This document shows positions 10,051-24,217 of a stretch of DNA of 39,151 bases, piece after piece (position 1 is the stretch's first letter; every line of letters starts with the position of its first letter). Source of the stretch: Gemmatimonadota bacterium (GTDB taxonomy: Bacteria; Gemmatimonadota; Gemmatimonadetes; Longimicrobiales; Longimicrobiaceae); the NCBI GenBank assembly GCA_031260285.1, contig JAIRKD010000089.1, positions 1-39,151 on the forward strand. Direction: 5' to 3'. The notes under the pieces were generated by a model. That model saw nothing but the letters and a program-made list of their open reading frames with translations, was not told the origin of the DNA and made no database searches. Both the position numbers and the translations under genes were made by a program.

Positions 10051-10863
10051 CTACCGGATCCGTGTCGGCATCGGGATTCCGGCCTCATAACTCCTCAGGT
10101 GCAGGCTGAGTGATCCGACAATCGGCACCCGGCTGCGCAGGTATACGATCATCCGGCGCTCATCGTCGCTGAAGTAGACTTCCGCCTCCCCGCCCTCTCC
10201 GAAGAGACCGTCCGTCTGGATGATCGGCTGCACGACAATTGTGTTGAATTCACCCGCCGGAACCTTGATCCGCTCCTTCCGCAGTACCTTCAGCACCACC
10301 GGATTCCCGTCTTCCTTGAAGTAGCGGGGGATGGTGTAGGTATCCCCCACCTTCAGGGGAAGAGTCCGGGCGTAGTAGAGGAACGCCACATCATCCAGCG
10401 GCCGGTCCGTCGGCAGGGTCATCACCGTATCGCGGCCTTCCTGCTGATAGGTGCGCGTCTCCGGCGAGAAGTTGAAGATCCGATGCCGACGGTAACGGAC
10501 TTCCTTCTGGTTCTGCTCGAAGCGGCGGGAGAAGAGGCCCGCAACATCCAGCCAGGTATCCAGACGTGTATCCACTCGCGCGAGGGGAATTCCGCCCTTC
10601 ACATGGAGAGAGGCGTGGTAGGTGGTATATCCACCGGTTGTGGCGAGGTCCAGGATATCCATCGTACCATCGCCAACACCGATTCCACCCAGCTTCACCT
10701 GGTACTCGGCGTGCTCTCCGGGTCCGAACGGCGCCCGATCCATCGAGGGACCGGGGTCTCCGGTGATGGCCTGGCCATCCATGGAAGTCGCGACAATTCC
10801 GAGGCCGGATACCGTAACGGCCAGGAGGGCCGCAGTAATCCAGAGGGTACGTGTACTCCTCAT
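10051..10863 (-). CDS. Exported DUF3108-family protein
   Basis: A 270-residue protein with an N-terminal hydrophobic segment (residues 8-26) that is probably a signal peptide or anchor, so the body should be periplasmic. The domain begins FGPGEHAEYQVKLGGIGVGDGTM and includes THLDTWLD-like and RRFEQNQKEVRYRRHRIFNF stretches, GRDTVMTLP, DDVAFLYYARTLPLKVGDTY and a C-terminal AEVYFSDDERRMIVYLRSRVP. These are typical of DUF3108 proteins, which are beta-rich and often occur near envelope or LPS genes; no reaction is known. It lies eight bases after the GT2 stop and is the last gene of the DegT-LpxL-GT2 unit, which suggests a role in handling a lipid or glycan product. Confidence 0.8.
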   Translation of the reverse strand: MRSTRTLWITAALLAVTVSGLGIVATSMDGQAITGDPGPSMDRAPFGPGEHAEYQVKLGGIGVGDGTMDILDLATTGGYTTYHASLHVKGGIPLARVDTRLDTWLDVAGLFSRRFEQNQKEVRYRRHRIFNFSPETRTYQQEGRDTVMTLPTDRPLDDVAFLYYARTLPLKVGDTYTIPRYFKEDGNPVVLKVLRKERIKVPAGEFNTIVVQPIIQTDGLFGEGGEAEVYFSDDERRMIVYLRSRVPIVGSLSLHLRSYEAGIPMPTRIR

Positions 10864-10871
10864 CCTGTCAC

Positions 10872-11774
10872 CTATCCTGTTGAATCCGGAGCTGCCACCA
10901 CAGGTGGAGAGCGCCGGAGTTTCTTCGAGATATTCCAGACATCAACAACAGCGGACCAGGGTCTGAAACGGGACTCCCGCTGCCTCATTTCGTACCGACG
11001 TTCAACCTCCAGCCCTTCGGTGCGCCGGGAGTGCGGAGCCACGGCATGGAGAAGTTCCACGTTGGCCGCCCATCCATCCGCATGAAGGAGTGGAACCCCG
11101 TTCCTGTCGGCAAGCGTACGTTTGAGCACGGAGATCCGGTACGCCCGGAAGCCCGACACCGGGTCGCGGCTTCCCTCGGGGAGCCCGACTCCATGGAGAA
11201 CAAAAGGCACTCCTCGTCGGGCCAGCCGGAGGGAGCGCGGCACATTCCGCCCTTCACTCACCACCGTACCCTCTACAATATCCGCTCCGCCCTCGATCTT
11301 CCGGATCAGGCCGGGAACATCCTCAGGGGCTTCCGTGAAGTCCGCCTGCATCGTAATCAGCACGTCACGCCGGGGGTGTGATGCCCGGCCGGCAGTCTCC
11401 CGGATCAGTCGCTCGATGGAAGGGCCGTATCCCTTCCGGGTCTCTTCCCGGAGAACCGTAAGCGGAAGGACTCGCGCGTACGGAGCAAGAACATCCAGTG
11501 TACCATCCGTGGACCCGTCATCCAGAACGAGGATTTCGTAATCCCGGGGGAATTCCTCCATCACCCGCCGGATCTTCCAGAGGAGAACGCCGACTGTCGC
11601 GGCTTCATTCCATGCGGGTATGCAGAAGTAGATCAACGTTGTCCCTGCTGTTGTTACCGGAACGGAGAGCCGCCAGGCGGCCGGGTTATCCTTCAGAAGC
11701 GCCGGGTGCCGCGCGATCTGTGCCGCGGCCCGTGAACCACGCTGCTCCCTGTACGGAACAGCGCAGATGATCAC
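10872..11774 (-). CDS. Family 2 glycosyltransferase (dolichol-phosphate-mannose-synthase-like)
   Basis: A 300-residue GT-A fold transferase. The nucleotide-sugar domain begins IYFCIPAWNEAATVGVLL at about residue 48, followed by ILVLDDGSTDGT, a MQADFTEAPEDVPGLI segment in the place of the D-x-D metal site, and GGADIVEGT. This resembles polyprenyl-phosphate glycosyltransferases such as DPM1/ArnC, but it has no membrane anchor. The acceptor is unknown; LPS or another surface glycan is likely from the neighbours. The annotated start is GTG, one base after the acyltransferase stop, giving about 45 residues before the fold; a TTG at 11636 would start right at the domain and is a real alternative. 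It is transcribed with the genes on both sides. Confidence 0.85.
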   Translation of the reverse strand: MIICAVPYREQRGSRAAAQIARHPALLKDNPAAWRLSVPVTTAGTTLIYFCIPAWNEAATVGVLLWKIRRVMEEFPRDYEILVLDDGSTDGTLDVLAPYARVLPLTVLREETRKGYGPSIERLIRETAGRASHPRRDVLITMQADFTEAPEDVPGLIRKIEGGADIVEGTVVSEGRNVPRSLRLARRGVPFVLHGVGLPEGSRDPVSGFRAYRISVLKRTLADRNGVPLLHADGWAANVELLHAVAPHSRRTEGLEVERRYEMRQRESRFRPWSAVVDVWNISKKLRRSPPVVAAPDSTG

Positions 11775-11775
11775 G

Positions 11776-12705
11776 TCATGTTGAGGTGATACCGGTCAGG
11801 CGGGAGGGGGGTTCCTCGAAGGGTGAGGTTTTCCAGCGTTTGTGAAACCAGAAATACTGGGTCGGGTCGATCCGGATCTCTCTCTCCAGAGCGGAGGCGA
11901 GCTCTCCTGTCACCCGCAGGATATCCGCTTCGAAGTCATCAGTCCGGCTGGCATCGATCCGCCGGGCATCAACCAGATACCTGCCATCGGGCAGCCTGCG
12001 GGCGATGGATGCCATAAGCGGAGCCCCGGTGCGGAGCGCAAAGAGCGCCGGCCCGCGGTGGGTGCTCGCGGGGATTCCGAAGAAGGGCACAAAAACCCCG
12101 GAACGCCGCGCATCCTGATCCGCCACGATCCCGACCGCATGCCCTGCTGCCAGAGCCCGGGGCACCCTCCTGGGTGCCTCTCCAAGCCCGGTGGTCTCCA
12201 CTCCCAGAGCCCGTCTCGCGTCGCTGATGCGCCGGTCCACCAGCTGATTCCGCATCCCCTTCACAATCGCCGTGATCGGATGGCCCCGGGCGGAAACAGC
12301 GGCGGCGGCCATCTCCCAGTTGCCGTAGTGACCGGTCGCAAAGATGACTCCCCGCCCCTCGGAGAAGGCATCCTCAACCGCCGTCCAGCAGCGGTCGGAG
12401 ATCACGGTCAGATCACGTACTGCTTCGGGGTCCAGCGAAGAGAGCCGGAGCATCGCGGTCACCTCACGGCCGAGATGCCGGTAGGCGCTGATGGTTGTCT
12501 CCTCGATCCACGCTTCGCTGGCCTCCGGGAACGCCCGGCGGAGGTTCGCCACAACCACATCCCGACGGATTCCGAGCGGACGGCGGATCAGACCGCCAAG
12601 CATCGCGCCTGCCCGATCCGCCTTCCGCGCTGAAAGACCGCCCAGACCGGCCTCCAGCGCACGAAGAAATCCGTACTCAATGCGGTCCTGCCACCCCTGA
12701 CCCAT
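11776..12705 (-). CDS. LpxL/HtrB-family lipid A acyltransferase
   Basis: A 309-residue protein of the lysophospholipid/lipid A acyltransferase family (LABLAT). The catalytic H-x4-E motif is seen as HYGNWE at residues 126-131, preceded by GRGVIFATG. VADQDARRSGVFVPFFGIPAS and a C-terminal PTQYFWFHKRWK (family W-x-H-R-R-W-K type) also match. These enzymes add a secondary acyl chain to Kdo-lipid A at the inner membrane. Unlike E. coli LpxL there is only a weak N-terminal hydrophobic segment, so membrane contact may be peripheral. It lies 24 bases after the aminotransferase and one base before the GT2 gene. Whether it acts on lipid A or another lipid cannot be read, but the LPS surroundings favour lipid A. 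Confidence 0.9.
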   Translation of the reverse strand: MGQGWQDRIEYGFLRALEAGLGGLSARKADRAGAMLGGLIRRPLGIRRDVVVANLRRAFPEASEAWIEETTISAYRHLGREVTAMLRLSSLDPEAVRDLTVISDRCWTAVEDAFSEGRGVIFATGHYGNWEMAAAAVSARGHPITAIVKGMRNQLVDRRISDARRALGVETTGLGEAPRRVPRALAAGHAVGIVADQDARRSGVFVPFFGIPASTHRGPALFALRTGAPLMASIARRLPDGRYLVDARRIDASRTDDFEADILRVTGELASALEREIRIDPTQYFWFHKRWKTSPFEEPPSRLTGITST

Positions 12706-12729: not shown

Positions 12730-13857
12730 TCAGCCCTGGAAGAACTTCCGGATCGCGCTGGCCACCTCCTCCAGATGCGCCTGGGTCAGCTCAGGGAATA
12801 CCGGCAGCGAAAGCACTTCACGGCAGGCCTGCTCCGATACCGGGAAGTCCCCCTCCCTGTACCCGAGATAGGAAAAACACTCCTGCAGATGCAGAGGAAC
12901 CGGGTAGTAGACCCCGCTCCCGATTCCAGCCTGCTGGAGCGCAGCCTTAAGTGCGTCGCGCTGGCCATCCAGCACACGGATCGTGTACTGGTTGAAGATG
13001 GACTCATTCCCCGGAGCGATCACCGGAGTCACAACCTCCGCGATATCCGCCAGCGCGCCATCATAGAAAGCCGCGTTCCGGCGGCGGGCATCACTCCACC
13101 CCTCCAGATGCGGGAGCTTCACGGAAAGCACCACCGCCTGCAGCGCATCCAGGCGCGAGTTGTAGCCTACTTCCTCGTGATGGTACATCTGGACTCCGCC
13201 ATGCACGCGAAGACGGGCAAGCCGGGCAGCGGTTTCGACGCTGTTGGTCACCATCATCCCCGCATCGCCAAAAGCGCCGAGGTTCTTGGTGGGGAAGAAC
13301 GAGAAGGCGCAGACATCCCCCAGAGTGCCGGTGGTGATCACCGTGCCCTCCCGGGTGGTCATCTTCGCCCCGATCGCCTGCGCGGCATCCTCGATTACGG
13401 GAAGTTCGAACTTGTCGCCCAGCGCCCGGAAGGCGGGCATATCCGCCATCTGGCCGAAGAGGTGAACCGGGATCACCGCCCCGGTCCGGTCCGTCACCGC
13501 GACTTCAGCGGCGGCGGGATCCAGGTTGAACGTCTCCGGGTCGATATCCGCAAACACCGGTCGCGCGCCGACGTTATGGATCGCTCCGGCGGTTGCGAAG
13601 AAGGTGAACGGCGAAGTCACCACCTCGGTGCCAGCACCGACATCAAACGCCCGCAGGGCAAGCAGCAGCGCATCGGTACCGCTGGCGCAGCCGATGGCGT
13701 GTCTGACACCCAGCAGCTCCGTGATCTCGCGCTCCAGCTGTTCCACCGGCGCGCCCAGAATAAAACGCTGCGACTCCACAATTTCACGAATCGCTTCCAT
13801 CACCGGCTCAGCGATTGTTGCGTACTGCTCGGTAAGGTCCAGAAGAGGAACACTCAT
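12730..13857 (-). CDS. DegT/DnrJ/EryC1/StrS-family sugar aminotransferase
   Basis: A 375-residue PLP-dependent fold type I enzyme. Family landmarks are the N-terminal VPLLDLTEQY, GCASGTDALLLAL near 56, SPFTFFATAGAI near 82, VIPVHLFGQMADM near 128, the VIEDAAQAIGA motif near 154, and FFPTKNLGAFGDAG with the PLP-binding lysine at about residue 191. Such enzymes transaminate nucleotide-linked keto-sugars to make amino sugars for O-antigen, lipid A or secondary glycans; the exact substrate is unclear and no matching dehydrogenase is in view. A -35/-10 pair lies immediately upstream, with only seven bases between the -10 box and the ATG, so the transcript may have almost no leader. It is the first gene of a unit with LpxL-like, GT2 and DUF3108. 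Confidence 0.92.
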   Translation of the reverse strand: MSVPLLDLTEQYATIAEPVMEAIREIVESQRFILGAPVEQLEREITELLGVRHAIGCASGTDALLLALRAFDVGAGTEVVTSPFTFFATAGAIHNVGARPVFADIDPETFNLDPAAAEVAVTDRTGAVIPVHLFGQMADMPAFRALGDKFELPVIEDAAQAIGAKMTTREGTVITTGTLGDVCAFSFFPTKNLGAFGDAGMMVTNSVETAARLARLRVHGGVQMYHHEEVGYNSRLDALQAVVLSVKLPHLEGWSDARRRNAAFYDGALADIAEVVTPVIAPGNESIFNQYTIRVLDGQRDALKAALQQAGIGSGVYYPVPLHLQECFSYLGYREGDFPVSEQACREVLSLPVFPELTQAHLEEVASAIRKFFQG

Positions 13858-14073: not shown

Positions 14074-15894
14074 CTACCGCATCACCGGTTCGCGGAACTG
14101 CATCTGGTGCAGACGTTGATATACGCCCCGCACCCCCAGCAGTTCGGCATGGGTCCCGCGCTCCACCACCCGTCCTTCCTCCAGCACGAGAATCGCATCC
14201 GCGCGGGCGATGGTGGAAAGCCGGTGCGCAATCACCAGAACCGTCCGGTCATGCATCAGCTCCTCGATCGCCTGCTGTACGAGATGCTCACTCTCCGCGT
14301 CAAGAGCGCTGGTCGCCTCGTCCAGAATCAGGATCGGCGGGTTGCGGAAGAGAGCGCGCGCAATCGCCAGCCGCTGACGCTGTCCGCCCGAGAGCCGTAC
14401 CCCCCGCTCCCCGACAATGGTGTCGTAGCCCTCGGGGAACTCGGAGATAAAGCCGTGCGCATGGGCCGCGCGGGCAGCAGCCTCGATCTCTCCGGAGGTC
14501 GCATCGTCGCGCCCGTAGGCGATGTTCGCCGCAATCGTGTCGTGGAAGAGGATCGTCTCCTGGGTGACAATCCCCATCAGCGAACGCAGATCCGAGAGCC
14601 GGAGCGTCCGGAGGTCATGCCCGTCAAGCGTGACACGCCCCGCTGTTGGCTCATGGAACCGGGGAAGCAGATCCGCGAGAGTGCTCTTCCCCGCTCCGCT
14701 CGGACCGACCAGTGCGACAACCTCACCGGGCCGGATGCGCAGATCAAGCCCCCGCAGCACGGGTGAACCCGCCTCATACTCGAAGTCCACGCCCTCGAAG
14801 CGGATCTCCTGACGGAAGCCGGTCACGGGAAGCGCGCCCGCCATATCCTCCACTTCGGCCGGGGTATCAACAATTTCAAAAACCCGCTCCGCCGCCGCCA
14901 CTCCCGGCTGTGCAAGCGCCGGAAACTGGCCGAGGAACTTGGCCGGCGCCATCAGCTTCATCGCCGCGCCAAGGAAGAGGATGAAGGCAGACGCTTCCAG
15001 AGACCTCTCCTCAAGCACCAGGTAGCTGCCGTACCAGAGCAACCCGAGAATCGCCAGGGCCGTCACCATCTCGGTGGCCGGCGGGAAGAACTGACGCCAC
15101 CGCTCGTTCCGTATGAACGCCTTGTAATGCCCCTGCGTCAGCGCCTGGAAACGCCGGTCCTCCCACTCCTCGGCGTTGGAGGCTTTCACCAGCCGGATCC
15201 CCGATACCGTCTCCTGAAGCTGCGACGCCAGATCACCCACCGCGTCCAGCACCCGCAGCACCCCTGTGCGAAGCCGCTGCCGGAACCGGCTCCAGAGCCC
15301 CAGCATCGGCGGGAGCGCCAGCAGCGCGATCAGCGTCAGCTTCCAGGAGATGAGGAGCAGCAGGACAATAAGGAAGACAACCTGCGCCGCGGAGGTTACC
15401 GCCTTGGCGAGGTTCGCCGTCACCAGCGTCCGGACCTGATCCACATCGGAGGTCAGCCGGGTGATGATCTGCCCCGTCCTCGTCCGCTGGAAGAAGGGAA
15501 AGCCGAGACGGAGAAGCTTCGAGTATACATGGTTGCGCAGATCCCGGGTGACCCGGCCCTGCAGAAGCGCGATGGAATACTGCTGCAGATACAGCGCGAC
15601 GTTCTTGAGGAAGAAGACGACAAAGAGGAGCACAACCACCGACCGGAGCGCATCCATCGGGTTGCTGGTTGTTGAGAGCCGGGCCAGAACCCAGGCGAGC
15701 GAACCACCCAGCTGCCCGCCCACAGCGGATGCGGCTTCCACGACCGACCCGGTTCCGTCAAAAAGAACCCCGAGGAACGGGATGATCAACGTGAAGCCGA
15801 AGGTATCCAGGGCGGCGAAGAGGATCGTCGCCGCCATCGTTCCCACAAAGAGCCAGCCGTGCGGCCGGAGATACCCGAAAATTCGATTATACAC
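14074..15894 (-). CDS. MsbA-type ABC exporter (lipid flippase-like)
   Basis: A 606-residue half-transporter with an N-terminal six-helix ABC exporter domain (residues about 15-330) fused to an ATP-binding domain. Walker A is GPSGAGKS at 397-404, the signature LSGGQRQ at 501, Walker B ILILDE at 521-526, followed by the H-loop IAHRLS. The arrangement and length match MsbA, the inner-membrane flippase for lipid A-core, although related multidrug or peptide exporters look alike. The LPS genes around it (LpxL-like, KdkA, GT9, LptD) favour lipid A export. The start is GTG because the first conserved helix begins a few residues later; there is no strong ribosome site. It follows the porX-type gene by 16 bases and is probably co-transcribed with it. 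Confidence 0.88.
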   Translation of the reverse strand: MYNRIFGYLRPHGWLFVGTMAATILFAALDTFGFTLIIPFLGVLFDGTGSVVEAASAVGGQLGGSLAWVLARLSTTSNPMDALRSVVVLLFVVFFLKNVALYLQQYSIALLQGRVTRDLRNHVYSKLLRLGFPFFQRTRTGQIITRLTSDVDQVRTLVTANLAKAVTSAAQVVFLIVLLLLISWKLTLIALLALPPMLGLWSRFRQRLRTGVLRVLDAVGDLASQLQETVSGIRLVKASNAEEWEDRRFQALTQGHYKAFIRNERWRQFFPPATEMVTALAILGLLWYGSYLVLEERSLEASAFILFLGAAMKLMAPAKFLGQFPALAQPGVAAAERVFEIVDTPAEVEDMAGALPVTGFRQEIRFEGVDFEYEAGSPVLRGLDLRIRPGEVVALVGPSGAGKSTLADLLPRFHEPTAGRVTLDGHDLRTLRLSDLRSLMGIVTQETILFHDTIAANIAYGRDDATSGEIEAAARAAHAHGFISEFPEGYDTIVGERGVRLSGGQRQRLAIARALFRNPPILILDEATSALDAESEHLVQQAIEELMHDRTVLVIAHRLSTIARADAILVLEEGRVVERGTHAELLGVRGVYQRLHQMQFREPVMR

Positions 15895-15910: not shown

Positions 15911-17470
15911 TTATCGCGGTGTAAGCAGCGCTACAGGCAGGATCATCTCCTCCGGACTGATCCCCCCGTGAAGGAAGCTCCCCCGGTACCTCGCCTGATA
16001 TTGTCTCAGCTTGGTCGGATAGACAAAAAACGAGTCTTCCAGCCCCAGAACGTAGTTTGTGGCTTCCTTCCCGCGCGGAAACCGGAGGATCCGCTCATCA
16101 TTTACCGCAAAGGCCAGCGACGGGTCCTCGGCACGCAGGTCATCCCCGAACTTGTACCGCAGATTCTGCGTCGCGTCGCGCTTGGCGTACACCGTCACGG
16201 GCCGGTGGCAGTGGATGGATCCGTGGTCGGTGGTGATCAGAACGGAAACCCCCATCCGGATCGCTTCCCGGACCGCCGCAAGCGCTTCAGAGCGGGCGAA
16301 CCACTGCCGCGAAAGCGCTCTCAGCGCCTCCTTGTCCCGAGCCACCTCCATCAGCACCGTTGACTCGGATCGACCGTGCGTCAACATGTCAACAAAGTTG
16401 AACACCAGCGCCGTCACACCCGGCTTCGAAAGATACCCCGGCAGCCGGTGGAGTGCCTGCGCACCGTCCGCGGCGGTGAAGATCTTCTCGTAGTTGACCG
16501 GCACCTGCCGACCCGTGAGCCGCTGAAGCTGGGCGATGAACAGCTGGTCCTCAAACGCGTTGAGGCTGCCCTCCATCTCCCGGCTCCACCAGTCGGGATA
16601 CTCTTCGGCGATCGCATCGGGAAACATCCCCGAGAAGATGGCGTTGCGTGAATAGGGAGTGGCGGTCGGCAGAATCGAGTAGTACAGCGCCTCCTCCACC
16701 TCGACCCCCGCTCCGAAAAGCGGCAGGATCGACCTCCACTGGTCCAGTCGGAGACAGTCGATCACCACAAACAGGACGTGGCGGTCTTCGGCGAGCAGCG
16801 GGCAGAGGAACTGGGGAACAAGATCAATCGAGAGCGGCGGCCGATGCTCTTCTCCGTTGACCCAGTCGCCATAGGAACCGGTTACAAACCGGCCGAACTC
16901 CCGGCGGAACTCGCCCAGCAGTGTTTCCAGTGACGCCACGAGGCCGATCTCCCCCGCGCTCCGGAGCCGGAGCTCCCAGTCGACGAGCTCGGAGTAGGTC
17001 TCCATCCACTCCCGCCAGGTGCGCTCGGTGGTGATCTCCGCGTTCAGCTCCCGGAACCGGTAGCTGAATTCGCGCGCCACATGCTGCTGCAGGAGAGTTT
17101 CACCCTCAAGAAGGCGGGTGACAACGGAGAGGATCTGCCGGGGGGAAGTCGGTTTGACGAGGTAGTCGGACACGCGACGACCGATCGCCTCCGTCATCGT
17201 CCGGTCCTCCTCGGACTTCGTCACCATCACAACGGGCACGTGCGGATCCAGCCGGCGCACTTCATCAAAAACCTCCATCCCCGTGCGCCCCGGCATCTGC
17301 TCGTCCAGCAGAATCAGGTCGTAGGGATGGAGGCGTACCAGTTCAAGCGCGTCATCACCATTGGCGACGGCGTCGATATGGTATCCGCGCCCCTGCACAA
17401 AAAGCAGGTGCGGCCGCAGAAGATCGATCTCGTCGTCGACCCAGAGGAGACGTTTCGTGGCGACCGTCAT
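15911..17470 (-). CDS. porX: PorX-type response regulator with PglZ phosphatase domain
   Basis: A 519-residue two-domain protein, the same size and order as PorX of Porphyromonas. Residues 7-120 are a receiver domain with acidic pair D12-D13, phospho-acceptor D56 (LILLDEQMPG), T84 and K106. After a helical linker (125-225) comes a PglZ alkaline-phosphatase-superfamily domain with FVVIDCLRLDQW (metal D238), PTATPYSRNAIFSGM (candidate nucleophile T271), NFVDMLTHGR (D361, H365), TTDHGS (D415, H416) and the C-terminal HGGISPEEMILPV (H501). All catalytic positions seem intact. In Bacteroidota PorX is activated by PorY, works with SigP to control type IX secretion, and has been reported to cleave oligonucleotides. 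Here it precedes an MsbA-type gene by 16 bases and diverges from a Kdo kinase. I chose the ATG at 17470; a longer reading adds 31 unrelated residues. Confidence 0.9.
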   Translation of the reverse strand: MTVATKRLLWVDDEIDLLRPHLLFVQGRGYHIDAVANGDDALELVRLHPYDLILLDEQMPGRTGMEVFDEVRRLDPHVPVVMVTKSEEDRTMTEAIGRRVSDYLVKPTSPRQILSVVTRLLEGETLLQQHVAREFSYRFRELNAEITTERTWREWMETYSELVDWELRLRSAGEIGLVASLETLLGEFRREFGRFVTGSYGDWVNGEEHRPPLSIDLVPQFLCPLLAEDRHVLFVVIDCLRLDQWRSILPLFGAGVEVEEALYYSILPTATPYSRNAIFSGMFPDAIAEEYPDWWSREMEGSLNAFEDQLFIAQLQRLTGRQVPVNYEKIFTAADGAQALHRLPGYLSKPGVTALVFNFVDMLTHGRSESTVLMEVARDKEALRALSRQWFARSEALAAVREAIRMGVSVLITTDHGSIHCHRPVTVYAKRDATQNLRYKFGDDLRAEDPSLAFAVNDERILRFPRGKEATNYVLGLEDSFFVYPTKLRQYQARYRGSFLHGGISPEEMILPVALLTPR

Positions 17471-17649
17471 AGGCGAGCAAAGGTATACAGGACAAGGAGA
17501 TTCCGCAACGCGAAACGCCCTTCCCGGGGGGCTTCGGGCGGTGGCGGGAACCCGTCGGAACACATACTTTCCGGCCCGGGAACAGACGGCGGTCCCAGGC
17601 TCTTCAACCGCTGCTTCCGGCTGCTTTTTTCAGGCCATCACTTCTCTCT

Positions 17650-18417
17650 GTGACCTTTCTCCCTGCCATGGGCTCTGAACCGCGCAACTTCACCCGGAGG
17701 GATGACGCAGGCACCAGGATCCTGGTCCGCCAGGGGTTCGAGTGGCTCGTGACAGCGGACGGGAGAACTCCATCCGGCGTTCATGTGATCGGCCGCACAG
17801 CGGGCGGGCGTGACAGCCATCCGGTTGCCGAAACTCCGGACGGGGAGCGGATTCTCCTGCGTGACTACCGGCGGGGCGGCGCCATCCGGCACTTCAACCA
17901 CAAGACCTACTTCTTCGGGAACCGGGCCCTTGATGAACTGCGGGTAACAGTCGCGGCGGCGGACAGAGGAGTCCGTGTGCCGCGGGTGATTGCGGCGATC
18001 GAGTGGCCACAGCGCTTCGGTTATACTGCGCGGCTGATGGTTGAGTGGATTGACGGGGCGATTGACCTCGCCCGCTGGCTCATCACCTCTGCGCCGGAGA
18101 ACCGCGCGGGCATGATGCGTACTGTGGGGGAAGAGCTCGCCCGGATGCACAACAGTGGCATCTCACACCCCGACCTCAACCTGCGCAACCTGCTTGTTGT
18201 CCCGGGAGATGAGCAGGGAAAATCGCGGGTGGTGATCATCGACTTCGACGGGGCGACGATACGGGACCAGCCTCTTCCGTCCCGGCTCCGGCGCGCCGCC
18301 CTCCGTCGGATGACCCGCTCCTCCTGGAAGCTCGGCGTGCCCGTCGGCATCCCCGAAAACGAAGCGCTGGCGGAAGGTTACGGCGCCAGCTGGCCGTTTG
18401 ATACCGCTCTGGGATAA
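17650..18417 (+). CDS. kdkA: Kdo kinase / LPS core kinase (KdkA/WaaP family)
   Basis: A 255-residue kinase-like protein of the lipopolysaccharide kinase family (Pfam Kdo), which phosphorylates Kdo or heptose in the LPS inner core at the inner membrane, using ATP. Typical features are LLRDYRRGGAIRHF near residue 69, the catalytic loop HPDLNLRNLLV at 173-183 (D175) and the metal-binding IIDFDGA at 196 (D198). This pattern, especially RGG and H-x-D-L-N, fits KdkA better than WaaP. The start could be GTG 17650 or ATG 17668; neither has a good ribosome site. It is divergent from porX and its last 40 bases overlap the end of the convergent GT9 gene on the opposite strand. Confidence 0.85.
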   Translation: MTFLPAMGSEPRNFTRRDDAGTRILVRQGFEWLVTADGRTPSGVHVIGRTAGGRDSHPVAETPDGERILLRDYRRGGAIRHFNHKTYFFGNRALDELRVTVAAADRGVRVPRVIAAIEWPQRFGYTARLMVEWIDGAIDLARWLITSAPENRAGMMRTVGEELARMHNSGISHPDLNLRNLLVVPGDEQGKSRVVIIDFDGATIRDQPLPSRLRRAALRRMTRSSWKLGVPVGIPENEALAEGYGASWPFDTALG

Positions 18418-19427
18418 CGCGCCAGCGCCAGCTTCACCTTTTCAACCACCTGATCCACACGGATCCGCTCCATCCGCCCCTCCCGGTACTCCGCCGTCAC
18501 CGGGTAGTCTTCACCCGGATCCCCGTACGCGTCGATCATCAGATCACCAAAGCGGCGGTACGGACCCACCCGTTTCGGATTTGTGTAGCCCAGCAGCGAA
18601 ACGGTTGGGGTCCCCAGCGCCACCCCGATATGCAACGGACCGGTATCCGGAGAGACCAGGACATCACTGGCATCAAGGAGCCAGACGAGCCGCCGAAGAT
18701 CCCATTCCAGCAGATCAAGCGGGGGATGCTTCGCGGTTCGGACGATCTCCTCCGCGGCAGCCAGCTCCCGGGCGGATTTCCCCCCGACAAGGATGATGCG
18801 AGCCCCCACCTCTTCATGCAGCTGATCAACCAGCCGGGTGTACCGCTCCACCGGCCACTCCTTCCGCGGTTTGCTGGTGCCGATCACACACGCCACCGTA
18901 GGCCGTCCGTCCGGAGGAAGGACATCCCGGTAACGCGCCCGTTCCTCATCCGTCGGGCCGAGCCGCCACTCCATGACGGCCGGAATGCCGAGATGCTCCA
19001 GGAACTCGATGTACTGATCCTGGACATGCCGCTGCCCGCGCGGCGCGATGCGTTCTGTGGTGAAAAGCCAGTTGGCATCCCGCGCCCGAACCCGGTCAAA
19101 ACCCAGCTTCCGGGGAGAGTGAAGCATCCCCGTGATCACTCCGGCCTTGAAGTACACCTGCAGTGCGATCACCAGATCGAACCGCTGGCCACCCGTCGCC
19201 CGGTGGATATCGCGGAACGCCCGCCAGCCCTTCTTCCGGTCAAAGACAACAAACTCATCCACCGCGGGGTGCCCCTGAACCAGCTGCAGCGGCCCCGGTT
19301 GAATCACCCATGTGATATGGACAGACGGAGAGGCCGCGCGCAGGGAGTTCACCACCGGAAGCACATGCACGGCATCGCCAATCGCACTCATCATCACGAT
19401 TGCGACCCGTTTCCCGTTCAGATCCAT
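18378..19427 (-). CDS. Family 9 glycosyltransferase (heptosyltransferase-like)
   Basis: A 349-residue GT-B transferase of family 9, which adds ADP-heptose to the LPS inner core on the cytoplasmic side of the inner membrane. The N-terminus reads VAIVMMSAIGDAVHVLPVVNSL, the usual G-D opening motif. The C-terminal half has VACVIGTSKPRKEWPVERYTRL, RIILVGG, and the donor-site motif VSPDTGPLHIGVALGTPTVSLLGYTNPKRVGPY. This is the WaaC/WaaF/WaaQ pattern; which heptose it adds cannot be told. I chose the ATG at 19427 (preceded by GGAAG); a GTG at 19442 would add five residues. Its end overlaps the kdkA end by 40 bases. It follows lptD by about 120 bases and may share its transcript. Confidence 0.88.
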   Translation of the reverse strand: MDLNGKRVAIVMMSAIGDAVHVLPVVNSLRAASPSVHITWVIQPGPLQLVQGHPAVDEFVVFDRKKGWRAFRDIHRATGGQRFDLVIALQVYFKAGVITGMLHSPRKLGFDRVRARDANWLFTTERIAPRGQRHVQDQYIEFLEHLGIPAVMEWRLGPTDEERARYRDVLPPDGRPTVACVIGTSKPRKEWPVERYTRLVDQLHEEVGARIILVGGKSARELAAAEEIVRTAKHPPLDLLEWDLRRLVWLLDASDVLVSPDTGPLHIGVALGTPTVSLLGYTNPKRVGPYRRFGDLMIDAYGDPGEDYPVTAEYREGRMERIRVDQVVEKVKLALARYPRAVSNGQLAP

Positions 19428-19548
19428 GCTCTTCCGTTCCACACTTTTCAGCTCTCCATCCGTCTCTGTCTGAAGCCTGCCGTCAGCCCGCCTGGTCAGC
19501 TCGCCGGTCAGCCCTTTGAAGAATCCCTTCAGGGGAGTCCTTCACCAG

Positions 19549-22308
19549 TTACCGGTTCCGGTCGATCCCGAGGTTCCGCTCGCCGTAATCAAACCGCAGG
19601 TTGCTGTTGTGAATCAATTCCACGTAGAACTCGAACGCAGTATTCCCGTTCGGAGCCTGGTAGAAGCTGAAGTTCGCCTGCCACTCGTGCAGATCCCGCC
19701 GGAAGTTCAGCCGGTGAGCTCCGAACCGGTTTTCGGAGACCGAATAGCTTGTGCCCCAGTCAACCGCCCAGTTGGGAGTCAGCTGGAAGTTGACCGTCCC
19801 GTTGAGCGTCTGAATCGCGTCATCGGGGGATACTCCACTGCTGGAGAAGGTACGTGAGGGGCGGGAGTAGTCGTACGAAACCGCCGCGCGCCAGGGCCCT
19901 CCCCCCGTGCCGACCGGATTGCCCGTAAACGCGCCCCCGTTCCCCGCCTGATCCGCGGGGGACAGCTCGCTGGGCGGCGGCACCGCATCATCCCCGCCCC
20001 GGAGCGTCCCGTCCCCGAAGAAGGTACGGTCCAGCCAGCGGAAGAGAGCCGACTGCGGACCAAGCTGGAAGGAGGTGCTGAGCGAGGTGAGTCGCGGCGC
20101 AAACCGCCCCAGCCGCCCGATATTCTCAGGAAGCGCCGGATCCAGCTCCCGCCGGTCGAACAGTTCGTGTGCCATCTGGATCGTAAGACCGCGCAGATAG
20201 TCCGACGTCACCGTGTTGCTCACCCGCTGCGTCACAAAGCCACTCCCCTCCTCGCGCGCCTTCACAAAATCGTATTCTAGCGGGCTCGTCATCAGCGACA
20301 GGATTGTCACCTTCTGGGGATCCGACGGAATCGGAGTTGGCGTCCGGGCCCGGCCTCCATTGATCGTGTCGTTTGCGGCAGCGATGGAGTCAAGCTGTTC
20401 CTGCGCCGGATCACGACGGGAAGTCCGGTTCAGCTTCGCCTCGAAAGTCTGCGTGAGGCTGAGTGAAACCCGGTTCTGGACCCGCGCATTGGAGACCCCG
20501 AAGACGGAGTCCTGGCGCGCACTCTGGAGCACCTTCGGCGCGTAGCTGTACGAGAACCGCGGTGAAAGCCGGTGGCGGATGGAGCTGAAGGGGCCAACCC
20601 CCGGCAGGAATCCGTACAGATCCGTGCTCAGCCCCGCGCCGACGCTCATCCGCATCGGCTCGCCCAGGAACTGCTCGGCGGTCAGCGTATCCCGCACCAG
20701 TCGCTGGTTCACCGAAATATTGGGAGAGATACTCGTGGTCCCGATCAGCGGCTGCTGGTAGCTCGCCCGCGCGGACCAGCTTGCATCGTCCCGCTCAAAA
20801 CCTCCCAGCGCCACCGAATCGCCATTGAGGTTCAGACCTCTGGCCTCAGCCATCGACAGCCGGTCCAGATTCCCGTTTCCCCCGACAGTAAACCGACCGA
20901 CGGACAGCGATGGCCCGAGCCGGAAGGTCTCCGTGTCCTGATCCTGATGCACGATCCTCGAATCCGCTGAGTACCGGTTGGTGGATCTCGATCCGGAAAT
21001 CACCCCGGGGGTGAAGTTCGCATTGCTGTACCAGCGCTCCCTCCCCGGCAGGGCGTCAAAGAAGGTTATCGCGGAGGGGGAAATGCTGAACGTCGGCAGC
21101 GTCGCGGACACGTCACCCGTCGCGATCGACTGCCTGCGGCTCCCACCCATCGAGATTCGTCCCCAGTCAAAACGCCGGCTGAGCGACAGCCCGGAAGTCA
21201 GATCCTGAAGCTGCTGAAGCGGGTCGTAGGTCGTCTGGCGAAGGAACCGGCTCGACGACGAGTACCGGCCGCTCGCGGAGAGACTTGTCCGCTCATCCGG
21301 CTGCCAGGAGCTGGATGTGGAGAGCGAGACCTGACGGGCGCCATCCGCCTCCCAGATTCTCTCCAGCTGGACGCTTCCGGTCAGGAACTGCTTCCGCCAG
21401 TTATAGCCGAGATCCCCGATCAGCGACGTGTACGCCCCGCTCCGCCAGGTTGTACTGAGCTGCGCGCCCATGTAGTCGTTGATCGCCCAGTAGAAGCCGA
21501 GATCGGAGACCTGCCGGGTATAGCCCGTTGAATTGCGGACGATGTCGTTGATTCCGAACCGTGGAGTCAGAAGCCCGCTCCGGCGCCCCTGCTCCAGACT
21601 CTGGAAGACAAAGGGCAGTACCATGACGGGAACGTCGCCAAAATAGAGACGCGCGGGTCGGGCGATGAGAATCCGGTCGCGGATGACCATCACCTGATCG
21701 GTCTCGAAGTGGTAATGGGGGATCTGAAGGTCACAGCTTGTGAACCGGGCGTGGCGGCCGAACAGCGTGGAGGTCCCCTCCACGGTCATATCCCCCGTCA
21801 CGAACCAGGTGGCATCCTGCACAAAACTGGTCCGCGCACCGATGGCAGTAGCTCGCCGGCGCTCGACATCGTAATACAGCACTTCACTGTCGAGGTCCTG
21901 CTCCGCACTGCTTACCCGCGCGTTCCCGAAAGCCGTGATCAGCCCCGCACCGCTCCGGTACTCGATTGTGTCAGCCGTCAGACGGTCACCCGCCCGGGTC
22001 ACCGAAGCTTCACCTTCCAGCCGCAGTGTTTCTGTATCCGCCCGATAGATAGCGGACTGCCCCAGATACTCCGTCATGATGAAGCCCGGCAGCCCTGTGA
22101 GCGCCCGCATCACGGAATCCGCGGAGGGACTCAGCGGGGGCGGACCCAGACTGTCACCAACCGCCAGCCCGAGGCTATCGACAGAAAGGCTGTCTCCCGG
22201 GAGCGGCGCACGGTTCCCGATACCAGCCGAAGGCTGCTGGGCCATGGCCATGACGGAAGCGAGGAATACCCCCAGGGCACCTGCCAGTCCGCAGACGACT
22301 CGCATCAT
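19549..22308 (-). CDS. lptD: LPS-assembly outer membrane protein
   Basis: A protein of about 919 residues that inserts LPS into the outer leaflet of the outer membrane together with LptE. A signal peptide (to about residue 24, AMAQ) is followed by an LptA/OstA-like beta-jellyroll domain (about 80-220: YRADTETLRLEGEASVTRAGDRLTADTIEY, then VTGDMTVEGTSTLFGRHARFTSCDLQIPHYHF), and then a large C-terminal LptD barrel rich in aromatic beta-strands ending in RNLGIDRNR. The mature protein shows only one cysteine, so the disulphides of E. coli LptD cannot form within it. Several adjacent starts exist (GTG 22311, ATG 22308, ATG 22305); the ATG at 22308 overlaps the upstream tatC stop as TGATG, which supports coupling. 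A partner lptE is not seen here. Confidence 0.93.
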   Translation of the reverse strand: MMRVVCGLAGALGVFLASVMAMAQQPSAGIGNRAPLPGDSLSVDSLGLAVGDSLGPPPLSPSADSVMRALTGLPGFIMTEYLGQSAIYRADTETLRLEGEASVTRAGDRLTADTIEYRSGAGLITAFGNARVSSAEQDLDSEVLYYDVERRRATAIGARTSFVQDATWFVTGDMTVEGTSTLFGRHARFTSCDLQIPHYHFETDQVMVIRDRILIARPARLYFGDVPVMVLPFVFQSLEQGRRSGLLTPRFGINDIVRNSTGYTRQVSDLGFYWAINDYMGAQLSTTWRSGAYTSLIGDLGYNWRKQFLTGSVQLERIWEADGARQVSLSTSSSWQPDERTSLSASGRYSSSSRFLRQTTYDPLQQLQDLTSGLSLSRRFDWGRISMGGSRRQSIATGDVSATLPTFSISPSAITFFDALPGRERWYSNANFTPGVISGSRSTNRYSADSRIVHQDQDTETFRLGPSLSVGRFTVGGNGNLDRLSMAEARGLNLNGDSVALGGFERDDASWSARASYQQPLIGTTSISPNISVNQRLVRDTLTAEQFLGEPMRMSVGAGLSTDLYGFLPGVGPFSSIRHRLSPRFSYSYAPKVLQSARQDSVFGVSNARVQNRVSLSLTQTFEAKLNRTSRRDPAQEQLDSIAAANDTINGGRARTPTPIPSDPQKVTILSLMTSPLEYDFVKAREEGSGFVTQRVSNTVTSDYLRGLTIQMAHELFDRRELDPALPENIGRLGRFAPRLTSLSTSFQLGPQSALFRWLDRTFFGDGTLRGGDDAVPPPSELSPADQAGNGGAFTGNPVGTGGGPWRAAVSYDYSRPSRTFSSSGVSPDDAIQTLNGTVNFQLTPNWAVDWGTSYSVSENRFGAHRLNFRRDLHEWQANFSFYQAPNGNTAFEFYVELIHNSNLRFDYGERNLGIDRNR

Positions 22309-23099
22309 CACGCTTCGCCAGCCGTCTCCATCAACGCCGGCCTCCCTGCGAACATTCTGGAGAGAAGGATACCGATCTCGTACAGAACCATCGCAGGGAT
22401 CGCCAGAAGCAGCATGCTGCTGACGTCCGCGGGGGTCACAACTGCGCTCAGAATCATCACGATTGCGATTGCGTATCTTCGCTTCTCAACGAGGAACTGC
22501 GGGGTGACCACTCCGAGCACGGTACCCAGCAGTACCAAAATCGGCAGCTCGAACGCGATCCCAAAGGCGCCCATGAGGCGAAGAACCATCGCGAGGTAAT
22601 CACTGACCACAACCGACTGCTCCAGACTCTCCGTCTGGAAACCCATTGTGAACCGGAGGATCAGCGGGAGCGTCAGGTAATAGCAGAAGAAAACCCCCGC
22701 GAAAAAAAAAGCAACACCACCCAGAATCGAAAAACGCACCAGACGCTTCTCACCCGCCAGCAGCATGGGCTCGATCAGAAGCCAGAGCTGCCGGAGAAGG
22801 TAAGGCAGCGTCACCAGAACACCGATGCAGAGAGCCAGCTGAAAGGTAATATAGAACGGATCCACAGGGTCGAGGTACTTCAGGCGCTGACCACCGAGGA
22901 AGGGCATCACGGGGCGGGTGAAAAAACCAAGCACATTATAGTTCATCGCCACCCAGAAACCGGCCGCCGTGCCGATAACAAGCACAACTGCAGCCCGGAA
23001 CAATCTCATCCGCACGTCATCAACCCGGTCGAGGAAAGTCATCTCCCCCGACCGTTTCCGGAATCCTTCGATGACACCGTCAAAGACGTTCACCCTCAC
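22308..23099 (-). CDS. tatC: TatC paralogue with altered N-terminal motif
   Basis: A 263-residue, six-helix inner-membrane protein of the TatC family, the receptor for twin-arginine signal peptides. It shares long blocks with the second copy upstream, such as FTMGFQTESLEQ, and ends in the family's LYEIGILLSRM. The family's cytoplasmic N-terminal motif (F-L-x-H-L-x-E-L-R in most members) reads FLDRVDDVR here, so the conserved His, Leu and Glu have changed, while the later Glu (AGEKR) and Asp (TPADV) positions are kept. It may have altered or no signal-peptide recognition. The start is GTG with a good GAAGGAAGAG ribosome site. The gene is coupled to lptD, and is separated from the other tatC by about 350 bases of repeat-rich DNA. 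Confidence 0.9.
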   Translation of the reverse strand: MRVNVFDGVIEGFRKRSGEMTFLDRVDDVRMRLFRAAVVLVIGTAAGFWVAMNYNVLGFFTRPVMPFLGGQRLKYLDPVDPFYITFQLALCIGVLVTLPYLLRQLWLLIEPMLLAGEKRLVRFSILGGVAFFFAGVFFCYYLTLPLILRFTMGFQTESLEQSVVVSDYLAMVLRLMGAFGIAFELPILVLLGTVLGVVTPQFLVEKRRYAIAIVMILSAVVTPADVSSMLLLAIPAMVLYEIGILLSRMFAGRPALMETAGEA

Positions 23100-23446: not shown

Positions 23447-24217
23447 TCACCCCTGAAGGAGGCTGGGCACGGTCCGCCGGCGCACCACAATCTTTGAGAG
23501 GATGATACTGACCTCGTACAGGATGATCAGTGGAATCATCATCAGCACCGTAATCGTAACCACGTCACCCGGTGTAATCACGGAGGCGACCACCGTGATC
23601 ACCGCGATTGCGTGTCTGCGCTTGGCCGCAAGGAACTCCGGCGTCACCAGGCCGATCGCGGTGAATGCAAGGATCACGATCGGCATCTCGAAGACGAGAC
23701 CGAAGGCAAAGAGAAGGCGGATCACAAAGCTGAGGTACTGATCAATAACGATCGCCTGCTCCAGACTCTCCGTCTGGAAACCCATCGTGAACTCAAGCGT
23801 TACCGGAAGCGCGACGTAATAGGCCATCGCGACACCCGCAAGAAAGAGCAGCAGCCCGAAGGTAAGTGTGGGGAGAATTGTCCGTTTCTCTTCCGGCCGC
23901 AGTGCCGGCGCAAAAAACGCCCAGGTCTGGTACCCCACCACCGGTGAAGCGAAGAGCAGGCCCACTACCAGCGCGAGCTTCAGGCTGATTACAAACGGAA
24001 CCGTGGGGCTGAGATACTTCAGCTTCGAACCGTTGAGGAAAGGCCGGATCGGTGCTTCGAGGATCCCGAGTATATCAAAATGAACAACGAGGTAGAAACC
24101 GATCAGTGTGGAAAGGATCAGTGCGATCAGACTCCAGAGGATCCGCCAGCGCAGCTCCTCCAGATGGTCCAGGAAGGGCATATCCCCCCCACTCGGTCCC
24201 GGAGATCGGACACTCAT
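23447..24217 (-). CDS. tatC: TatC, twin-arginine translocase receptor
   Basis: A 256-residue, six-helix TatC with the standard N-terminal motif MPFLDHLEELRWR, including the Glu needed for twin-arginine signal binding. The second conserved Glu lies in PEEKR and the conserved Asp in TPGDV. It exports folded proteins across the inner membrane together with TatA/TatB subunits, none of which are in the window. Central LEFTMGFQTESLEQ and C-terminal LYEVSIILSKI are shared with the second copy, showing a tandem duplication followed by divergence. Its ATG overlaps the TGA of nrdR by four bases (ATGA), so it is translated with nrdR. This copy looks like the functional signal receptor. Confidence 0.95.
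   Translation of the reverse strand: MSVRSPGPSGGDMPFLDHLEELRWRILWSLIALILSTLIGFYLVVHFDILGILEAPIRPFLNGSKLKYLSPTVPFVISLKLALVVGLLFASPVVGYQTWAFFAPALRPEEKRTILPTLTFGLLLFLAGVAMAYYVALPVTLEFTMGFQTESLEQAIVIDQYLSFVIRLLFAFGLVFEMPIVILAFTAIGLVTPEFLAAKRRHAIAVITVVASVITPGDVVTITVLMMIPLIILYEVSIILSKIVVRRRTVPSLLQG

Follow-up and report, generated by a model that had tools for sequence, protein, structure and literature searches.

The window analyzed here, a stretch of 39,151 nts, makes up an entire contig (C83) of a Gemmatimonadota MAG, which is 98% complete and totals 2.76 Mb in 110 contigs. On its minus strand, positions 15911-17470 (ATG at 17470, stop at 15911) encode a 519-aa orthologue of PorX, which consists of a receiver domain with the phospho-Asp D56, a helical linker and a PglZ/alkaline-phosphatase-like phosphodiesterase domain; an upstream GTG at 17563 would extend the protein to 550 aa. 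Just as the earlier note had placed porX 16 bases before an MsbA-type flippase gene, an msbA-type lipid A flippase ABC transporter gene (14074-15894, minus strand; ABC_membrane and ABC_tran domains) lies in the same orientation and begins 16 nt after the end of porX, and its best NCBIfam match is TIGR02203 MsbA (535.8 bits, below the 602 cut-off). The minus-strand run continues with a DegT/DnrJ/EryC1 aminotransferase gene (12730-13857, PF01041), which is the next co-directional gene and is specific to this family, a lipid A acyltransferase gene of the LpxL/HtrB type (11776-12705, PF03279), a co-directional family 2 glycosyltransferase gene (10872-11774, PF00535) and a DUF3108 gene (10051-10863, PF11306), where the run ends. 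On the other side, a Kdo/WaaP-type LPS kinase gene lies divergent from porX on the plus strand (17650-18417; PF06293, E 5e-25; 108.6 bits against NF002475, below its cut-off of 142), followed on the minus strand by genes for a family 9 (heptosyl-type) glycosyltransferase (18378-19442, PF01075) and an LptD-like outer-membrane LPS assembly protein (19549-22311, PF19838). No type IX secretion genes were detected among the scanned proteins of the whole contig, in agreement with the earlier note, which had seen none near porX.

The identification of PorX, first made from length, domain order and catalytic positions, is borne out by several comparisons. The protein matches Response_reg and PglZ in Pfam, and it scores 548.9 bits over positions 2-513 of 513 against the NCBIfam equivalog T9SS_RR_PorX (NF052313), a full-length curated model with a cut-off of 300 bits. 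Its best solved relatives are PorX of Porphyromonas gingivalis (7pv7, E 2.9e-118) and of Flavobacterium johnsoniae (E 3.5e-113), and an AlphaFold2 model (mean pLDDT 86) superimposes on PorX 7pvk with a TM score of 0.94. Residues D56, D238, T271, D361, H365, D415, H416 and H501 are invariant in 151 sequences (79 Bacteroidota rows and 72 Gemmatimonadota rows, a few of the latter being the same genome fetched twice). They correspond to the Zn ligands published for F. johnsoniae PorX (PorX_Fj), D237, T271, D360, H364, D414, H415 and H499 (PMC10951265, PMC11320123), and to its nucleophile, all of which are intact in the window protein. Thus, the window gene is a genuine and intact PorX orthologue. 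BREX PglZ proteins (type I and type 3) share the PglZ alkaline-phosphatase-like metal phosphodiesterase domain, and a BREX-3 PglZ model does match the window protein weakly, at 76.3 bits. However, this is far below the 250-bit cut-off, the PorX cut-off is far exceeded, the window protein has a receiver, the scan of the window proteins revealed no BREX gene, and no second PglZ gene was detected elsewhere in the genome. Scores and gene context thus ruled out that porX encodes the PglZ of an anti-phage BREX-like system, a reading that we consider scarcely credible.

Compared with PorX of P. gingivalis and F. johnsoniae (structures 7pv7/7pva/7pvk, 8p6f and 8ted/8tef), the window protein is approximately 35-37% identical and shares domain order, length, fold, phospho-Asp, Zn ligands, nucleophile Thr and the auxiliary phosphate site R275/K329/N358. 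In contrast, a set of residues flanking the metal site is changed throughout the phylum (Gemmatimonadota/Bacteroidota: C239/N, P272/Q, T364/S, G366/A, L500/Q), with C239, P272 and L500 present in all Gemmatimonadota rows and T364 and G366 in nearly all, and positions 486-489 read TKLR in Gemmatimonadota but NNYN in Bacteroidota. The PglZ dimer-interface serines S384/S388 of PorX_Fj correspond to A385/Q389 in the window protein and are variable across Gemmatimonadota; these serines are needed in PorX_Fj (PMC11320123) but do not define PorX proteins in general. Such sequence differences suggest that the pocket or the dimer may have changed in Gemmatimonadota PorX, but they could also be the product of ordinary divergence. 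In a phylogenetic tree, which omits one row first taken as Bacteroidota that was the window's own locus, PorX of the two phyla split cleanly (support 1.0), and the window branch is not elongated. Because the phyla separate with full support and the window branch is ordinary, porX has been inherited vertically for a long time here, in a genome that is indeed, as the earlier note supposed of its lineage, outside Bacteroidota. Recent transfer from Bacteroidota was ruled out by the clean split together with 22 group-specific positions that set Gemmatimonadota PorX apart. Of the named matches, one is a near relative, 'Gemmatimonas sp. Dino_bin9' (82% identity in PorX), and the rest are Bacteroidota proteins of 34-40% identity.

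To our knowledge, accounts of PorX have linked it strictly to type IX secretion, and we know of no agreed physiological role for its enzyme activity. PorX is the known regulator of the type IX secretion system (T9SS) of Bacteroidota, and Gemmatimonadota relatives of the window's genome carry SprA. In the window's own genome, a search covering SprA, GldM and C-terminal-domain (CTD) cargo found none of them. The earlier note had named a full T9SS elsewhere in the genome, together with a lack of conservation of the porX-msbA pairing, as what would count against its proposal, and neither was found. SprA was sought with two types of query. The SprA model, which matches SprA in 6/8 control genomes, gave no match in this genome even at E 10; neither did the GldM model at E 10, in a search without a positive control, and the best match to the type A CTD cargo model reached 16.1 bits against a cut-off of 23. 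A Gemmatimonadota SprA query run over 16 genomes also gave no match here, but E 1e-253 in a member of the same family (G286). The missing SprA is not a gap of a single assembly, a cause that was ruled out since SprA is absent in 14 of the 15 genomes of the family.

Across the phylum, PorX exceeds the NF052313 cut-off in 345 of 395 genomes. Because SprA was found in 280 of the 395, type IX secretion is, judged by gene content, native to Gemmatimonadota, where it had earlier been mentioned as possible (PMC11285876). The window's family has SprA in 1/15 genomes and PorX in 14/15. When PorX was called by E-value, which differs from the cut-off tally by one genome, 267 genomes had both proteins, 79 PorX only, 13 SprA only and 36 neither. 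Absence of PorX thus goes with absence of SprA (of the 49 genomes without PorX, 36 are also without SprA; odds ratio 9.4, with no correction for kinship), and some of the 13 genomes with SprA only are probably gaps, as 10 of them are less than 90% complete. The same holds within genera: both genes are present in one genome of g18 and absent from four, and both are present in twelve genomes of g65 and absent from two. In many lineages, then, the fate of PorX follows that of SprA, which points to a role in type IX secretion.

These distributions bear on whether PorX in the window's genome could still be a type IX regulator that serves a divergent or undetected system. The frequency of SprA in the phylum and its tracking by PorX would fit such a role, as would the presence of porX and sprA on a single contig, approximately 20-25 kb from each other, in f11, the sister class (G007:C92, G009:C79), and the search of this genome for type IX components covered SprA, GldM and the CTD. 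Nevertheless, neither the NCBI model nor a Gemmatimonadota query that performs well within the family detected SprA, no GldM and no CTD above the cut-off were seen, and the loss is family-wide, so that we regard a hidden T9SS as unlikely. The earlier note's picture of a PorX outside a type IX setting therefore stands for this genome as far as SprA, GldM and the CTD are concerned, but not for the phylum, which has SprA and to which PorX is no stranger in that role.

PorX-less genomes were also informative about LPS. They retain msbA in all 25 tested and an LpxC match with one exception in 36, and in the regions read the flanking gene order is intact with porX cleanly absent; PorX is therefore dispensable for making or flipping LPS as such. 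The absence of porX from many lineages that have msbA and lpxC, most of which also lack SprA, runs counter to a pure LPS role. Genome G018 (locus L154), which is 97% complete, has PorX, but neither LpxC nor SprA was matched in it and its porX is not followed by msbA; it may have lost LPS. In the window's family, dN/dS of porX is approximately 0.08-0.19 and below that of msbA in every pair, with dS near saturation. Such low values in a family nearly devoid of SprA indicate, at the level of sequence, strong purifying selection that preserves porX for some function not tied to SprA. Among SprA-less genomes, 79 have PorX and 36 do not, and this uneven distribution might be taken to mean that porX is a vestige being discarded now that the secretion system is gone, but PorX persists in nearly all family members, its catalytic residues are invariant, its dN/dS is below that of the flippase gene and its branch is not long. 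Purifying selection and retention in the family ruled this reading out, and we regard it as highly improbable.

The earlier note had asked whether the arrangement of porX and msbA recurs in related genomes, and it does. Of the 60 class genomes read, the window's included, 54 have a co-directional msbA after porX; the 60 were not a random sample (about half carried the best-scoring PorX matches, and the others were picked to cover families). Within these 60, the gap is ≤40 nt in 49 genomes and the reading frames overlap in 16. For loci in which the ORF-cluster map labelled msbA as an antisense cluster (C30), the tblastn neighbourhood map was preferred. The pairing is thus a conserved trait of the Gemmatimonadota class. 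It is also particular to Gemmatimonadota among the phyla read, because in Bacteroidota porX is followed instead by tsaE, at 62 of the 79 loci. The gene upstream of porX changes between families while msbA stays: it is a Kdo kinase or family 9 glycosyltransferase (GT9) gene in the window's family, a gene for a protein without Pfam match plus a CtaB-like gene in some other families, and a DnaB-like ATPase gene plus YebC/Ruv genes in further ones (the CtaB, YebC and Ruv names were assigned by reading the sequences). The Kdo-kinase neighbour of the earlier note is accordingly real and divergent in the window, but as it occurs mainly in the window's family and in scattered others, it was ruled out as a conserved partner of porX.

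Where msbA does not adjoin porX, other LPS genes were found. In lineage f7/g89, porX is divergent from lptF/lptG (L141:6347-9093, L142), and in sister class f11 it lies between GT9 genes. Among 20 SprA regions with wide flanks, sprA itself is divergent from lptF-lptG in 19, the exception being G286 (sprA loci concerned: L213-L216, L219-L224, L226-L227 and L229-L245). No report of this divergent arrangement was found in the literature searched. The f7/g89 porX takes the position that sprA holds in relatives.

The best reading of these data, in which our confidence is evenly balanced, is that PorX connects a phosphorelay to envelope or LPS export and, in genomes that have it, to type IX secretion, and that in the window's family it would be kept without the secretion system. 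An unlinked histidine kinase would phosphorylate PorX at D56 and thereby control its dimerisation and its zinc phosphodiesterase, whose substrates would probably be short linear or cyclic oligonucleotides; this activity would in turn adjust LPS export or envelope assembly. Alternatively, the receiver might contact an inner-membrane transporter directly, as PorX does with PorL/GldL in Bacteroidota, where the PorX_Fj receiver binds GldL (PMC10951265). In SprA-bearing genomes, PorX would couple the supply of LPS to type IX secretion, and in the window's family the LPS/envelope branch alone would remain. Support for an LPS or envelope role comes from the constancy of msbA beside a changing upstream neighbour, from the LPS genes next to porX in f7/g89 and f11, from the retention of porX under constraint stronger than that of msbA in a nearly SprA-less family, and from the divergent sprA-lptF-lptG arrangement. 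The earlier note's suggestion that PorX controls LPS or envelope traffic is hence strengthened by the class-wide pairing, though unproven, but does not extend to a requirement for LPS itself. A bolder form, which we put forward tentatively, is that in Gemmatimonadota PorX belongs to LPS export itself, as its nucleotide phosphodiesterase under phosphorelay control, and acts on MsbA or together with it, and that the T9SS and LPS export form one coupled system (porX-msbA, sprA-lptFG) whose LPS branch alone survives loss of the T9SS.

PorX might instead act on non-LPS targets, as a general phosphorelay-controlled oligonucleotide phosphodiesterase in stress or nucleotide signalling, with the msbA pairing a frozen ancestral gene order. 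Cleavage of oligonucleotides by PorX-family enzymes, as cited in PMC12839542 and PMC11320123, would agree with this, and so would the PorX-less genomes that keep msbA in place and the PorX of G018, which persists without an LpxC match. Were the order simply frozen, however, one would not readily expect the genes upstream of porX to change from family to family while msbA keeps its place, often in an overlapping frame, nor to find LPS export or LPS glycosyltransferase genes beside porX in f7/g89 and f11, and we therefore consider this alternative somewhat doubtful.

PorX is retained by a whole family that almost entirely lacks the SprA translocon, and its association with msbA across the class offers a concrete candidate for a second pathway of this regulator. 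The database name 'T9SS response regulator' is hence no proof of a type IX system in a genome. Coupling of LPS export and type IX secretion is known from A-LPS anchoring and from LpxE in P. gingivalis, and the sprA-lptFG link raises the possibility that such coupling is old and common to several phyla. LpxE, the lipid A phosphatase of P. gingivalis, depends on a functional T9SS (PMC12704123). As a separate observation, the window carries a pair of nearby tatC-like genes in the same orientation (22308-23099 and 23447-24217), of which the first is TatC by Pfam and the second was judged tatC-like from its sequence; the same pair is also present in L120.
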